Below, piece by piece: positions 26,574-54,865 of a stretch of DNA of 64,000 nt. This stretch comes from Rubripirellula sp. Lineage in GTDB: Bacteria > Planctomycetota > Planctomycetia > Pirellulales > Pirellulaceae. Every line of letters begins with the position of its first letter. Within the stretch, counting starts at the first letter, position 1. The translations under genes and the position numbers were made by a program. The notes beneath the pieces are model-generated. The model searched no databases, was not told the origin of the DNA, and saw nothing but the letters and a program-made list of their open reading frames with translations. The DNA lies in NCBI GenBank assembly GCA_029245125.1, contig JAQWPZ010000103.1, positions 1 to 64,000 on the forward strand, read 5' to 3'.

Positions 26574-27026
26574 AAGGCCATACTCGGCAAGGACGGCATG
26601 GGAATGCAGGAAGTGGTCATGAAGGAGCTGGATGATAACGTCGGTAAGGTGCTGCAAAAACTCGATGTGTTCGGCATCGCCGAACATACCATCGTTGTTT
26701 TCACTAGCGACAACGGTCCCGAAGAAGAATTGGGATCACCCCTACTGTTCAACTTGCGGTGTGATCCATTCGAAAAAGCTGCCGAAAAATCGGGGAATTA
26801 CATGGAGCTTCTTGGCAAACACATGTGGGTATTCGGCCCAGCAAAACGGATTTTGCAACAGCATCTTGCAGCGTTTAAGGATTTCCCATCACGTTCTGAT
26901 ACCGCTCATTTGAATGCAAAGGAAATCGAGGAAAAGGTCGGCAAGAGGAGGTGGGGCAGTAGGCCTGAACGACCGTTTCAGATGGTTGCAGAGACCCACG
27001 CTCTGGGTGGGATTCATGCAGCATGA
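26574..27026 (+). pseudogene. Arylsulfatase remnant with internal deletion
   Basis: GMGMQEVVMKELDDNVGKVL followed by HTIVVFTSDNGPE is the middle of a type I sulfatase. It is joined directly to LLFNLRCDPFEKAAEKSGNY, KHMWVFGPAKRILQQHLAAF, which is the sulfatase C-terminus. The N-terminal half with the CxPSR modification site and about 100 residues between the two blocks are missing, so it cannot be active. Confidence 0.75.
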
Positions 27027-27256: not shown

Positions 27257-28423
27257 TCAGCCTGCTGATTGGTCGTCAACCAGCAAGCGAGAAATGGAGC
27301 CATCTGGCAGCAGTTCGTGATCTTTGCAAAACAGACGGTCAACGGCGTCCTCATGAAGGATTGGCGGGGCGACGCCATTCGCTGTACTTGTAAGCGATGT
27401 CGATTTTGGATGCGACATGAATTGGCTGCTGCTAGTGTCGATGGTATGACCATCATTTTGACCGCCACGTATATCATTTACTTCAAGCGTATCAGTTGCA
27501 AACGGAGAGACTGGTTCACGCATTCGCTCCCCTTCGGCCACACTTGGAAGGCGTATTGCCGCAATTGACTCGCCTTCGGTTGTGCTTGACTGTTCGATCA
27601 GGCGATTGATGACACGGATGGCATCGTTGGCCGTAATTCGTCCGTCTCCGTTCACGTCGAGATACGGCGTTGGTTGTAATGGTGGCATCGGTAGCGGGAG
27701 GTCGACATTAGAACCACTGACCTTACCAAGCATCAGCTCATTGATGCATTGAAGTGCGTCGACCGCTGATGTCTGCTTGTCATCGTTGACATCAGTTGGG
27801 TCATCTGGGTTTTGCCAAAGCGGTTGCTCATTGGCAACATCCGCAATGACCTGTTTCAATGCGTTGTAGTTTGTCTCGTCGCTCAGATCAAATCCGAGAG
27901 GTGGTGTCAGATTGATTGTTCCAACGAGCTCGTTTTGTTGGTTGATAATCTTGACATCACGATAGCTGGCACCCCAGTTATCGCTCCAAACATCTGACGA
28001 GTCGTTGTTATTGGCATCAACATCTTGAAGAATCGGTATCGACCGATCCTCTGCCATCAAGGAATTTCCGTTTTCGTATCCGTGTTCATTGATGGCGGCA
28101 ATCTGGATCGGTTTTTCGGGATACTCGCTGCGCAGCTCATTTTGCATTTGATCCAAGTAGCCAAACTGGCCACGGCAGTAACCTCAGGTCGAACGCACAA
28201 AGTAGAACGCGCCGGTTTGTCCCATGAGATCGCGAGGCGAAAAATTGGTGTTATAGGCACCCGAATTTGGATTGACATCCATTAGCTGGAAGTCCGGAAC
28301 CATTTCACCAATGGAATCCGCTGCGAACAATGCGCGCTGCTCTAGTGATTCAAACCGACATGCACGAACGTGTTTTGACCGGTATTTACCACTTTGATGC
28401 GAAAGCGATGCGCTCATGGACAC
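27257..28423 (-). CDS. Secreted redoxin-dockerin protein with in-frame TGA: candidate selenoprotein (U-G-Y-C)
   Basis: Read through one TGA (28184-28186), the product has 388 residues. Order: LEPR-XLL-type motif RFESLEQRALFAAD (23-36), used by planctomycete surface/exported proteins; a thioredoxin/AhpC-like domain (about 40-185: VPDFQLMDVN, GAFYFVRST-U80-GYC83, IAAINEHGYENGN); two dockerin Ca-binding repeats (about 210-277: DVNDDKQTSAVDALQCINEL, DVNGDGRITANDAIRVINRL); and a Ser/Thr-rich tail. The TGA stands exactly at the first position of the CxxC redox motif (ST-U-G-Y-C). Frame is kept on both sides and no other lesion is seen. A 7-bp hairpin with a GUU loop begins 10 nt after the TGA. Selenocysteine insertion is the best explanation; a Cys-to-stop mutation is the alternative. 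Confidence 0.7.
28157..28173 (-). promoter_or_regulatory. Candidate bacterial SECIS hairpin for the redoxin-dockerin gene
   Basis: In the mRNA, GUGGCCA-GUU-UGGCUAC folds into a 7-bp stem (one G-U pair), extendable by CC/GG across a 2-nt bulge (28153-28175). Seventeen nt separate the UGA from the loop, and the loop starts with G. The bSECIS model of Zhang and Gladyshev asks for 16-37 nt and a G in the first two loop positions. Confidence 0.6.
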
Positions 28424-30142
28424 AAACCAAAAATCGTCGAGGAGGGGAGCGTGGAACTAAGCGTTAGAACAAGCCCAGCATCCATCATTGTAATCGGTTC
28501 GTGGATAGCCACGATCATTAAGGTAGCTTCTCGGCGCACAAAATGAACAATGATTCGAGTGCACTGATTCCGCTTATCCACGCGGTTTCAGACATCCGAC
28601 GATTGGCCACAAGCCCCGGTTTGGTCCGTGTGATCACGAATTGGGTCGGAGGCATGGGGCAGTCAGGGGACGCATCTCGTAGGCTCTCTTCAATGTTAAG
28701 TCATGGCAAGTGAGTTGATGCCATTCCTGCGAATTGCTCGCGAGATTCGTTGGGTTTTGCAGTGCGTTCTCGGCCGCGCTAGGCCCATCAGATGAGGGCC
28801 AAACTGCCCTTGAACTCGATTCGTACTGGCGGCTTAGGTAGGTTGACAGATTGGTGCATAACCACGATGGCGTCGATCCTGACTTTGGCAGTTGGCGACA
28901 CCGTGGGGTCAAAGAATTCGGACATGCGTTTTGGTAGATGAAGTGCAATACTGCGTCATCAGCTACGGCCGAATTCTCCGTTGAAGTCGTTTCACGTAAA
29001 GCAAAGCTGCAAAAACGGTGAAGCGAAATGGGATGATGAGGCAGCAGGTATCACGCCGATGTTCTGAGTGCGGAGCAAGTGAAGCAAGGTAAGCTAAGTG
29101 TCTCGTCGATATGGCCGAAGCAACCCGCCAGGCTGCTTCGTTTTTTCGATCTTAGTATCCAGATAGGGTGGTATCGCCATTGCCGCGACCAAGTCGTTGC
29201 CCAACCCCTGATGATTTCGTTCAGTGTGAGAATCGACTTGTTCGGCTCGCACAGAGTTTCGCATCGTTGGTAAGCATCGAACGTCTTAAAGAACTTCGTA
29301 TCGCGGTTCATGATCAAGTTTGTACAGGCCGTTTCCTGTCGGTTGGTTCTGCCGGGCGAAGTCCGGCGCGCCGCTCAGCAGTAACTTGCGATTGGTTCAG
29401 TGCCAATCTGAAGTAACATCGCTCTTTGGCAAAGTTTGGCAGCTCGCTGATGTGATTGAGGCTAGCCATCAAGACTTTCTGGCGTTGTGATATCGTGGCA
29501 TCCATCTCAAGCGACCTCACTCTTGGTTGAGTTCGTACGCATAGGTTCGCTAGGTCGTTCTCGATGGTTTGGTAGATAGCCGAACTGTCTCATTCAAAAT
29601 GCGAATTGGCGATTTCCGCTGGAATTCTGGTGTTATTAACCGACTCACTGATGCACAAAATGGTACGCCAATCAAAGGATCGATTTGACTCGCGCTCCGA
29701 ACGCATTCTGCTTGGCTGCTGCAACCGATCCCGTTACTGAAAACGTGAGCACCAACGCAACTGTGGTCGAGAGTTTCCGTTGCTGAATTGAGCGATTACG
29801 GTTTGATGAACCGATCTAGTGGGATCACGTGGCGTTTAGTCGTCAGCCGAAAGGCGTGTAAGGTCAGTGATCAGCCGCATGGCGGAACTCGAAGTGGCTT
29901 CGCCGCTGCAATTGGCTGTCAGCGGGTCGGCGTGCTCGAAATTTCCGTGAGTAGGCGACAAGGGGTAGCAATGCTCTCGTCGATTCTGTGATTTAGGCGA
30001 TTTGCCATCAGGGTCACTGTCCGTTCAGCCTCCGGAATCATTCAAGGCCTAACAACTTTCTCATTTGGGTGTCGGGTAAATCTGCGACTTGGCGGTGGTC
30101 ATGGTAGCGGCGAGTCTTGCTCTCGTAATTACACAAACCGAT
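28424..30142. other. 1.7-kb region without a recognisable gene
   Basis: No frame shows a known family, signal peptide or ribosome-binding site. The string ACACCGTGGGGTCAAA near 28888 also occurs, slightly changed, near 2955, suggesting another small dispersed repeat. The region is rich in short broken frames and may hold decayed genes I cannot identify. Confidence 0.4.
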
Positions 30143-30640
30143 ATGAACAACATGCGATCCCCATTTTCGGCGTCTGGCGACTGCGAATCACCACGCAACG
30201 GAAGGCCATTTTTCCATTTCTGGCGATGCTTTTGGCTCACTTTCCTCGTTGTCTCGCTCCCCGTCGCTTGGTACTGCTATTACGTCCCGTCCAATCGCAT
30301 CGCGTGGGCTGAAAGCTACGCTGTTGCCCAAACGCAAGCCATCCAATCTGAAAAACCAGTCATCTTGTATTTCACTGGTAAGTGGTGTGTTCCCTGTCGG
30401 ATCATGAAACGCAATGTGTGGGCAGATGAACAGGTGATGGCATCCGTCAACTCGCAATTTGTCCCCGTGGCAATTGACGTGGATGATCCTGACGATGCTG
30501 CGGTGATGGCTCGCTACAAAGTTGAAGGCCCGCCGGTCACGATCATTACCGATTCCCGAGGGAGTGTGCTGCGGTGGCGAGCAGGGGGCATCGGAAAAAT
30601 CGAGTTCTTGGAATTTCTAGCGGAATCGAACTCTTCCTAG
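30143..30640 (+). CDS. Membrane-anchored thioredoxin-like protein
   Basis: About 165 residues. The start is uncertain (ATG at 30101, 30143 or 30152; none has a clear Shine-Dalgarno). One membrane helix (FWRCFWLTFLVVSLPVAWYC, about 27-46) is followed by a thioredoxin_7/DsbD-gamma-like domain (about 70-160): EKPVILYFTGKWCVPCRIMK with an intact CxxC, then DVDDPDDAAVMARYKVEGPP with the cis-Pro, and a C-terminal helix. It is probably a periplasmic thiol-disulfide protein. It is a useful internal comparison: this thioredoxin keeps Cys where two others in the window have TGA. Confidence 0.82.
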   Translation: MNNMRSPFSASGDCESPRNGRPFFHFWRCFWLTFLVVSLPVAWYCYYVPSNRIAWAESYAVAQTQAIQSEKPVILYFTGKWCVPCRIMKRNVWADEQVMASVNSQFVPVAIDVDDPDDAAVMARYKVEGPPVTIITDSRGSVLRWRAGGIGKIEFLEFLAESNSS

Positions 30641-30937: not shown

Positions 30938-31621
30938 GTGGACCGTTACTACCGCATCTTCGGTATCGCGCTGTTGACGGCTTTGGTCGCGGCGGTCGCG
31001 GGTTCGTATTTCGGTGGAGGTATCGCTTCGGTACTGTTGTCCACTGATGGAAACAGCGAGAAAAAGGTCGAGGCATTACGTCTGTTCTTTGCGGATATGA
31101 ATGGGGCGGCACCGTTCGCCTATGTAGCGATGGTCGTTGTCGAGGTGGTTGTAGCTCCCATCCCCGGAACGCTTCTGTACCTTCCGGGCGGAATGATCTT
31201 TGGTGGTTTTTACGGCGGTCTCTTGTCGCTGCTTGCCAATGTTCTTGGTGCAGGGATCTCCTGCCAATTGATGCGTTCGGTTGTCGGCCGTAATGCGACA
31301 CGCTCGTTCTTTGAAAAAGATTCTCTCGTCAAGTACCGAGAGTTGATCGAAAGGCGAGGCCTGTGGTTGATCGTGCTGTTACGGCTGAATCCGTTGACTT
31401 CGTCGGATCTAGTTTCGTATGCGTCTGGTCTAACCACGATGCGTGTTTCTACGGTCATGTTGGGCACCGCGATTGGCATGGCACCACTTTGTTATGCCCA
31501 GTCCTATCTCGCGGCCACGCTGTTTGAGTCTTTTCCCTGGCTGATCTGGCCGATGCTTGTTGCCTGCGCTGTTTATGTCTTGTTGATTGTTGTCCTGCTG
31601 TTCCGACTCAGAGGTCAATAA
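30938..31621 (+). CDS. TVP38/TMEM64 (VTT/DedA-like) membrane protein
   Basis: The 227-aa protein (GTG start) has about six hydrophobic segments. The VTT-domain core is clear: VVVEVVVAPIPGTLLYLPGG, IFGGFYGGLLSLLANVLGAG, then GRNATRSFF and LWLIVLLRLNPLTSSDLVSY with the conserved R-x-NP. These proteins are thought to act as lipid scramblases or flippases. The gap 30641-30937 before it shows no gene. Confidence 0.85.
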   Translation: MDRYYRIFGIALLTALVAAVAGSYFGGGIASVLLSTDGNSEKKVEALRLFFADMNGAAPFAYVAMVVVEVVVAPIPGTLLYLPGGMIFGGFYGGLLSLLANVLGAGISCQLMRSVVGRNATRSFFEKDSLVKYRELIERRGLWLIVLLRLNPLTSSDLVSYASGLTTMRVSTVMLGTAIGMAPLCYAQSYLAATLFESFPWLIWPMLVACAVYVLLIVVLLFRLRGQ

Positions 31622-45177: not shown

Positions 45178-45708
45178 ATGAAAAAGTACGCTGTCCTGCT
45201 GGTGGTTTTTGCTGCTGTCATCGGGGGTTGCAAACGAAAAGCAGAAGTCAACTCGACCGACTTCTTCGCTGAACCCACCGCGGCGGCGGCCGCCAAAGTG
45301 ACCAGCCAAATTTATACGGTTGACGAGTACGACCCCGCTCGCGACGTCGATGCTGATCTCCTCGAAACGGTCAAGCAAGCGAAGAAAGGCAATAAACGAA
45401 TCATTCTGGAAATTGGTGGGCACTGGTGAAGTTGGTGCAAGATCCTGAACGAGTTCGTTCAGACAAACGAGAGAATTCACGCGGAGCTCGAGAACGGCTT
45501 TCTGATAATGAAAGTAAATAAGAGTGACGAGAACGACAACTCGCTCTTTCTGAGTAAGTATCCAAAGATTTCGGGATATCCACACTTCTTTGTGCTCGAT
45601 CAAGATGGCACTTTTTTGCATTCTCAGGAAACTGGTGCGCTGGAAGCGGGCCAAGGATACGACGAAGAATTATTTGTGGCCTTCTTGAAAACGTGGGCGC
45701 CCGAATGA
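45178..45708 (+). CDS. Thioredoxin-like lipoprotein with in-frame TGA: candidate selenoprotein (U-S-W-C)
   Basis: Read through one TGA (45427-45429), the product has 176 residues. It has a lipoprotein signal with lipobox IGGC (Cys18), a short acidic linker, and a thioredoxin_7-type domain (about 60-170): KKGNKRIILEIGGHW-U84-SWC87-KILNEFVQ, then MKVNKSDENDNSLFLSKYPK, ISGYPHFFVLDQDG with the cis-Pro, and a C-terminal helix. TGA occupies the first position of the WCxxC motif. Both sides are in the same frame with no other defect, and the total length is normal. A perfect 7-bp hairpin with an AGUU loop lies 15 nt after the TGA. Selenocysteine is the favoured reading. A Cys-to-stop mutation, leaving an 83-aa fragment, is the alternative. 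It is divergent from the TRAP operon. Confidence 0.72.
45445..45462 (+). promoter_or_regulatory. Candidate bacterial SECIS hairpin for the thioredoxin-like gene
   Basis: CUGAACG-AGUU-CGUUCAG is a perfect 7-bp stem with a 4-nt loop and a G in loop position 2. Twenty-two nt separate the UGA from the loop, within the 16-37 nt of the bSECIS model. It encodes LNEFVQ, so the fold exists within normal coding sequence. Confidence 0.65.
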
Positions 45709-53116: not shown

Positions 53117-54561
53117 TCACTTTGCTAGCTGCAATGCATGTGTAGGCAGTGGCAAAAAATCATGCTCGCGGATCATCCAGCTTACAAGTTCCTGACGAAG
53201 GGTCTTTTCCACTTCATCATCGTTTTTTTCCCGCCAGATTGTTGAGTTCCATTGGGTCGTTGGCCAGATCATACAACTCGACGATCGGTCGCGGGTTTTG
53301 GAAGTAGAGCCGCTGGTGCAATGACGATAGTTTGTTCTCGTTATGTGCTTTCTGAATGGCCGCCCAGGCAGGTTTGTTGGACATGTCGACCGGCGTGTGA
53401 CTGCGGTTCGGCAAAGCATTATAAATGTAGCGGTAACGTTTCGAAGTGATTGAACGCGAAAGATCCAAACCATCGGTGCGGGTGATCGGTCCCCAGTGCC
53501 AGCCACGTTCGGCGTAAACGTACTGCCGAGTTTCCGTTTTCTCGCCGAGAAGTTGCTGAACAAAACTGATGCCGGTCATCTCTTTGAGCGATCGCATTCC
53601 ACATGCGGCGAGGATTGTTGGGCCAAGATCTGTACCGCAGCCAAGTGCCGACGAGGCTGATTCCGGCTTGGTGCGGCCGGGCCAGCGAATGATCAACGGA
53701 ACGTGAGTGCCACGGGCCAGTAAAGTGCCCTTGCCGCGGAGCATTGCTTCGCCGTTATCACCCAAAAAGATGACCAGCGTGTTGTCTTCCATTCCACGGG
53801 TCTTCAAAGGCTGAATGATCTGTCCAAACCCCTGGTCAAGTTCTCGAACGGACGCGAGATACCTTGCGTAGTCGATCCGAAGAGCAGGTCAGTCAGGCGG
53901 AAGTTCTAACTTGCTCGGATCGATGCCGTCATGCTTCTGAGGAAATTTTCGATGCGGTTGATTGAAGCCAAAGTAAAGAAAGAAAGGTTTATTGTTGGGG
54001 ACTTTGTCTAGAGCCGCGCTCACCCGGTTCGCAACCTGCATCAACCGGTTTTTTTTTGTTCGCAAACCGTACGAAGTGGTCAAATCGTTTGTCGCAACCT
54101 TGCATGCCGGCTTCTCGCAACGCTCTGTCAATGTGCTCGTCTTCGCGGATGCGGCCGTCAAGATGCTGATGGCGTCCGTCCAGTCCCACCCAATATCCAC
54201 CTGCACGAAGGACGTCTGTGAAGAACTGAGCGTCCGCGCGCGGCGGCTGCCCGAATCGAGTGACCCCTAAACTGACGGGAGAACGACACGCAAAAATCGA
54301 AATTCATGACGGCGCACATTGCGGCGCGGATGTGTAAGCCCGATCAAACCGCATTCCCTGCCCAGCAAACTTTTGCAGGTTGGGAGTAATCCTGAACCGC
54401 CTTGTGTTCTCGTTGTCGTAACAGCTCACGTGCGGGACGCTGTGATCATCGGAAAGAATCTGTAGCACGTTTGGTCGTGACGGGTTGGCCCATGAAGATG
54501 AGTTGAAGCCAACCAAAAGAAGCATGGTTGTGAACCCGCGTAAAGTTGGTCGGGGAATCAT
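53117..54561 (-). pseudogene. Type I sulfatase (heparan N-sulfatase-like), at least four lesions
   Basis: The start has a signal peptide and SRPNVLQILSDDHSVPHVSC, then the modification site SAPQCAPS followed by TGA (54304-54306) where the essential Arg of C-x-P-S-R belongs. The frame continues ISIFACRSPVSLGVTRFGQP. An A9 run at about 54046-54054 causes a frameshift into VSAALDKVPNNKPFFLYFGF. A TGA at 53889 replaces Trp (PPD-W). VIFLGDNGEAMLRGKGTLLA and VELYDLANDPMELNNLAGKK follow, with another frameshift at the A run near 53228 before the C-terminus. Together these give a complete ancestral sulfatase that is no longer translatable. Confidence 0.88.
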
Positions 54562-54865
54562 GGATAAATGAACGATCTGTGGGAGACATTTTAACTTACG
54601 AATGATACATAAGGGACTGGCCGGTGGGTTGTACGGTGGATACTCCTTCGTTCATCAATCTCGGGACGATACTCTGCTGTGTTATCTAGAAATTGCGTTG
54701 GGTCGCTATTGATCCGCTCTCAATCACAACTTGCGTCTTCTTGGTAAGGTCAAGGTGCCGGTGGAGGTGTGGTAGAATCAAGAGTGCTTCCGATTCGATC
54801 GTCTATCGGAGGTTGTGGTCAGAACGATTCGGAATGCCTCTAAAGAAACCGCCCAAGGTTGAATC

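Follow-up and report, generated by a model that had tools for sequence, protein, structure and literature searches.

The window, by which we mean the whole stretch of 64,000 nucleotides of Rubripirellula sp. DNA that was analysed, carries on its minus strand a redoxin-dockerin gene whose frame, running from 28423 to 27257, holds one internal TGA only (Table 1). The preliminary description had placed this lone TGA in an otherwise intact frame, with no further lesion across the redoxin and both dockerin repeats; sequence and translation bore out both points, and Dockerin_1 was matched in two stretches. The translated frame reads FYFVRST-U-GYCRGQF around the UGA, which occupies position 1 of a U-G-Y-C redox motif. 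We took as start the ATG at 28417, which is common to the same-genus homologue L030 and gives 387 codons including the stop. The GTG at 28423 was disfavoured, and divergence between the window gene and L030 goes up 5' of the ATG. The table-11 list of open reading frames cuts the gene in two at the UGA, as it does its Sec-form relatives.

Table 1. Features of the predicted selenoprotein gene, with the basis of each assignment.
Feature	Coordinates	Strand	Basis
Predicted redoxin-dockerin selenoprotein CDS	27257..28417	-	ATG 28417-28415, terminal TGA 27259-27257; 386 aa, Sec78; translation
LEPR-XLL-like leader motif RFESLEQRALFAAD	28316..28357	-	Seen in sequence; LExR in relatives
Thioredoxin-fold redoxin domain (modelled)	27839..28300	-	NF053656 174 bits; Pfam AhpC-TSA; AlphaFold model and PDB matches
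In-frame UGA, very probably Sec	28184..28186	-	Same UGA in 27 homologous genes; TGT/TGC in four others
Putative bSECIS hairpin, 7-bp stem and GUU loop	28157..28173	-	RNAalifold, pair counts with covariation, synonymous-codon null, loss in Cys forms
Type I dockerin, two repeats	27599..27796	-	Pfam PF00404 (Dockerin_1) 52.6 bits, cut-off 22.9, two stretches
Low-constraint C-terminal tail	27260..27598	-	dN/dS about 0.39 vs L030

When the neighbourhood was compared with nine related regions, nothing was shared apart from this gene and two further genes of the window, which had distant matches. Since the neighbour genes differ from those of the same-genus relative, gene context is uninformative on the substrate. 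An isolated sulfatase fragment (26598-27026, plus strand, 25.6 bits) adjoins the gene downstream, and several fragmentary ORFs lie at 22.9-27 kb of the window. At a distance of 2 kb, 30089-30640 (plus strand) encodes a Cys-type thioredoxin-like protein (Thioredoxin_7, 56 bits), adjoined by a gene for a VTT-domain membrane protein (30938-31621, plus strand).

Two further loci of the window contain internal TGA codons. A lipoprotein-like Thioredoxin_7 protein with the motif HW-U-SWC, encoded at 45178-45705 (plus strand) with its TGA at 45427-45429, is likely to be a second selenoprotein; a 7-bp hairpin, CUGAACG-AGUU-CGUUCAG, follows 15 nt after the TGA and is probably the first bSECIS of the preliminary description. 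The same-genus genome G252 has this TGA too (L078, 77% identity), and other members of the genus match without the stop. The sulfatase at 53220-54651 (minus strand) carries TGA codons at 54306 and 53891 plus a frame change, the former giving CAPS-stop in place of the expected active-site motif CxPSR; it looks like a decayed gene and not a selenoprotein.

Hairpin, homologues and selenocysteine machinery

Re-reading of the sequence confirmed the hairpin as claimed, with its stem, its GUU loop and both of its spacings: arms 28173-28167 and 28163-28157 enclose the loop at 28166-28164, and, counted 3' from the UGA, the hairpin starts at a distance of 10 nt and the loop is found at 17 nt. By single-sequence folding the window hairpin is weak alone (z -1.3). 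RNAalifold, applied to the 13 TGA sequences of the order, returned the identical seven pairs unaided, and all 91 of the 91 cells were paired, a value not reached by any of 500 shuffles. Across the 27 TGA genes from Planctomycetota that make up the hairpin set, 174 of 189 cells were paired with 35 double-sided changes, again with none of 500 shuffles that high, and slid controls gave 26-42% paired. Because the hairpin lies inside coding sequence, random synonymous codons were used as a null, which in 5000 draws produced a mean of 95.5 and a maximum of 116 pairs vs the 174 observed. The default consensus of the 27 sequences was reduced to the five central pairs, both the outermost and the A-U closing pair being lost; L051, L052 and L055 form just 3-5 of the 7 pairs, deviating in the lower stem. 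A scan of the window with Rfam gave no match. The traits that define a bSECIS were found, namely a stem-loop near the UGA, covarying pairs and a G or U in the loop (GUU in the window). Judged from the aligned sequences, conservation of the putative hairpin goes far beyond chance.

A survey of 296 genomes of the order found the domain in 15 genomes and 16 copies, 13 of them with an in-frame TGA and three with Cys; in the 13, the single TGA falls at the same place. Another 14 genomes, all carrying a TGA copy, came from 392 genomes of the phylum that were searched with a profile, and a single-protein search of genome contigs added one more Cys homologue, L049, from a Planctomycetaceae MAG, with the same leader and dockerin. 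Alignment A2 comprises 16 homologues. Comparison with Cys-containing homologues, a check proposed at the outset, revealed Cys codons at the UGA position in all four (n = 4), without a break in the frame, and the hairpin lost in each, with 3/7 pairs left. A sequencing error at 28184-28186, the other possibility raised then, is ruled out by the presence of the TGA in 27 independent genes. A tblastn search of plasmids with the full protein gave no match.

In the tree, the Cys forms are nested inside the Sec forms and two changes are needed. A conversion from Sec to Cys within the window's order would suit this topology; we only infer its direction, because the root is the midpoint and the deep branches are weakly supported. 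Against L030, dN/dS (Nei-Gojobori) came to 0.195 before the TGA and 0.098 for the part of the redoxin that follows it; the dockerin stretch gave 0.070 and the tail 0.387. All four figures are approximate because dS is near 1. Selection downstream of the TGA is thus purifying, at 0.10 for the redoxin and 0.07 for the dockerin. As a separate observation, L054 and L056 (genomes G504 and G358) have tandem redoxins, the first copy without both redox residues (SxxA) and the second with the Sec UGA.

The assembly that contains the window (7.06 Mb, 334 contigs) was searched for the Sec machinery, and selA, selB, selC and selD were all present, with every match above its curated cut-off: a tRNA-Sec whose anticodon is UCA (68.5 bits), SelD (231 bits), and SelB (314.8 bits) directly preceding SelA (466 bits) on the same contig. 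Among genomes of the order, SelB exceeded its cut-off in 12 of the 12 TGA-form genomes vs 74 of 296 overall (hypergeometric p = 2.9e-8, with related genomes non-independent). As for the three Cys-only genomes of the order, SelB was missing in G234 and G288 and present in G282. In the rest of the phylum it was detected in 11/14 TGA-form genomes and in 6/6 of the complete ones; the three without a SelB match are all incomplete (77, 88 and 76%).

The redoxin domain and its partner domains

NCBIfam model NF053656 matched residues 42-195 of the window protein with 174.1 bits (cut-off 100), and it matched 16/16 members of A2. The Pfam AhpC-TSA match was modest (28.1 bits, cut-off 26). With the NCBIfam ResA model NF002854, no match to the window protein was obtained at E<=1, and L030 scored 12.1 bits vs a cut-off of 170. 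The redoxin aligned with the window's own Trx protein over just 15 columns. Its AlphaFold model (pLDDT 89.9, pTM 0.87) had as nearest PDB folds DsbE/ResA, with Z 17-18 and an rmsd of 2.0 over 132-138 residues at 17-21% identity, and then AhpE/Prx, with Z about 15-16. Residues 47 and 50 of the model, the Sec/Cys pair, lie where helix 48-67 begins, a thioredoxin-like placement. On the model, the predicted fold is a thioredoxin/ResA/peroxiredoxin-like domain.

This fold is compatible with two chemistries, and the choice between them concerns the reaction only, not the Sec residue. A Sec peroxiredoxin-type peroxidase, instead of a thiol-disulfide oxidoreductase, is suggested by the AhpC-TSA match above cut-off, by the AhpE and Prx folds among the structural matches and by an Arg invariant in A2 (R122, A2 numbering), which precedes what we take to be the strand where peroxiredoxins have their active-site Arg. 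The peroxiredoxin motif PxxxTxxC was looked for in A2 and was absent, the Thr position being Sec or Cys itself in 16/16 sequences, which yields UxxC, and the nearest structures are those of DsbE/ResA. We consider a peroxidase the less likely of the two, and fold, motif and partner domains point to an exported thiol-disulfide oxidoreductase as the likely role. Regarding possible redox partners, the genome contains DsbD_TM (86.8 bits); VKOR was not found in it.

The N-terminal leader shows the motif ESLEQRALFAAD, which went unrecognised by the NCBIfam models at E<=1. An LExR motif 5' of the redoxin is also present in L030, L032, L033, L036, L038, L040, L042, L043, L044 and L049. Leader and dockerin occur together in the window protein, L030, L032, L036 and L049, and the leader is combined with Ig-like repeats and a weak dockerin in L033 and L044. 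An SdrD_B architecture was seen in L043, a PEP-CTERM-like end in L034 (18.3 bits, below the cut-off of 20.7), and a C-terminal Cys redoxin on cadherin-like and SdrD_B proteins in L031, L035 and L041. Most of the phylum-level relatives (e.g., L051, L053, L055, L057, L059 and L062) have leaders that by eye are lipobox-like. From the leader motif and the partner domains, an exported or cell-surface placement of the window protein is plausible.

Decoding of the UGA and relation to known families

The internal stop is very probably read as selenocysteine, and the comparative evidence establishes, at the level of sequence, UGA recoding with a bSECIS. We assign a probability of roughly 0.9 to the reading that the gene encodes a selenoprotein, with UGA 28186-28184 decoded as Sec via SelB and the hairpin, whose product we infer to be an exported thiol-disulfide oxidoreductase. 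The preliminary description had named missing machinery, relaxed selection and sequencing error as the grounds on which its selenoprotein reading could fail, and that reading came through all three.

Gene fragments nearby, such as the sulfatase piece at 26598-27026 and the broken sulfatase at 53220-54651, could suggest that a Cys gene is decaying here and that its UGA arose by nonsense mutation. We give this almost no credence: the UGA is common to 27 genes across the phylum, dN/dS after it is 0.07-0.10, the hairpin covaries and the frame has no other lesion. Scarcely more probable is that the UGA is a true stop, or is read through without Sec, leaving a short leader peptide and a downstream gene that restarts at TTG 28156. 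A 299-aa table-11 ORF does begin right after the UGA, but a start at that TTG would truncate the modelled thioredoxin fold, removing its first strands and the beginning of the helix with the active site, the parts 5' and 3' of the UGA evolve as a single domain, four homologues have a Cys codon for the UGA in an unbroken frame, and SelB co-occurs with the UGA form. The pseudogene, sequencing-error and split-gene readings were all rejected.

For the selenoprotein reading, we propose that SelB with Sec-tRNA(UCA) would decode the UGA during translation, guided by the hairpin 10 nt 3' in the same mRNA. The product would consist, in this order, of the LEPR-XLL-like leader, the thioredoxin-fold redoxin with Sec78 and Cys81, and the pair of type I dockerins. 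Fold, motif and partner domains suggest that Sec78 would be the attacking nucleophile and Cys81 the resolving residue. The DsbD-type membrane reductase of the genome may recharge the selenoprotein, and the dockerin would anchor it to the cell exterior.

The earlier impression that this was an undescribed selenoprotein family did not hold: the domain is already modelled as NF053656 (redoxin_TUGYCR, 'TUGYCR motif thioredoxin fold (seleno)protein', NCBIfam release 20.0), so the family is not new, and T-U-G-Y-C-R is present letter for letter in the window protein. The model spans only the domain of about 146 residues, and the leader and dockerin of the window protein fall outside it. A literature search on TUGYCR and NF053656 found no paper naming the model. 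A 2026 review of the prokaryotic selenoproteome lists a Prx-like thiol:disulfide oxidoreductase (PF00578, UxxC) and a 'Redoxin family protein' (PF08534, UxxC) (PMC13188914), which, likened by domain and motif, share with the window protein an AhpC-TSA/redoxin-type domain and UxxC; the string 'Planctomyc' does not occur in its main text. ResA, DsbE and TlpA have the same fold and the CxxC-type spacing of the two redox residues, but Cys comes first in them where the window protein has Sec. AhpE and the AhpC/Prx1 peroxiredoxins share the AhpC-TSA match and the fold, and the Thr of their TxxC corresponds to Sec/Cys in the window family. Sec machinery and selenoprotein candidates were reported in 2016 for the Porphyra-associated planctomycetes P1 and P2 (PMC4807772); the main text of that report names formate dehydrogenase and FmdB, and the word 'redoxin' is absent from it.

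What is unusual is mainly the dockerin-bearing surface architecture. The preliminary description had regarded the combination with dockerin as undescribed, and this still seems so in the literature searched, where selenoprotein and dockerin together retrieved only an unrelated CAZyme tool, and neither the dockerin architecture nor the covariation evidence was found. The module on surface architectures and the repeated Sec/Cys exchange likewise appear to be unpublished. We see about even chances that the TUGYCR selenodomain is mobile as a catalytic module of planctomycete surface proteins, carried on dockerin, SdrD_B/cadherin-like, PEP-CTERM and lipoprotein anchors, by which selenoenzymes would be displayed outside the cell, and which would have been converted repeatedly from Sec to Cys, in some lineages with loss of the Sec machinery.

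The 27 Sec and four Cys homologues, with one SECIS that shows compensatory changes, form a natural Sec/Cys series in which the reasons for retaining or losing Sec can be explored. For the planctomycetes, the finding suggests that selenium use reaches beyond dehydrogenases to exported modular surface proteins.
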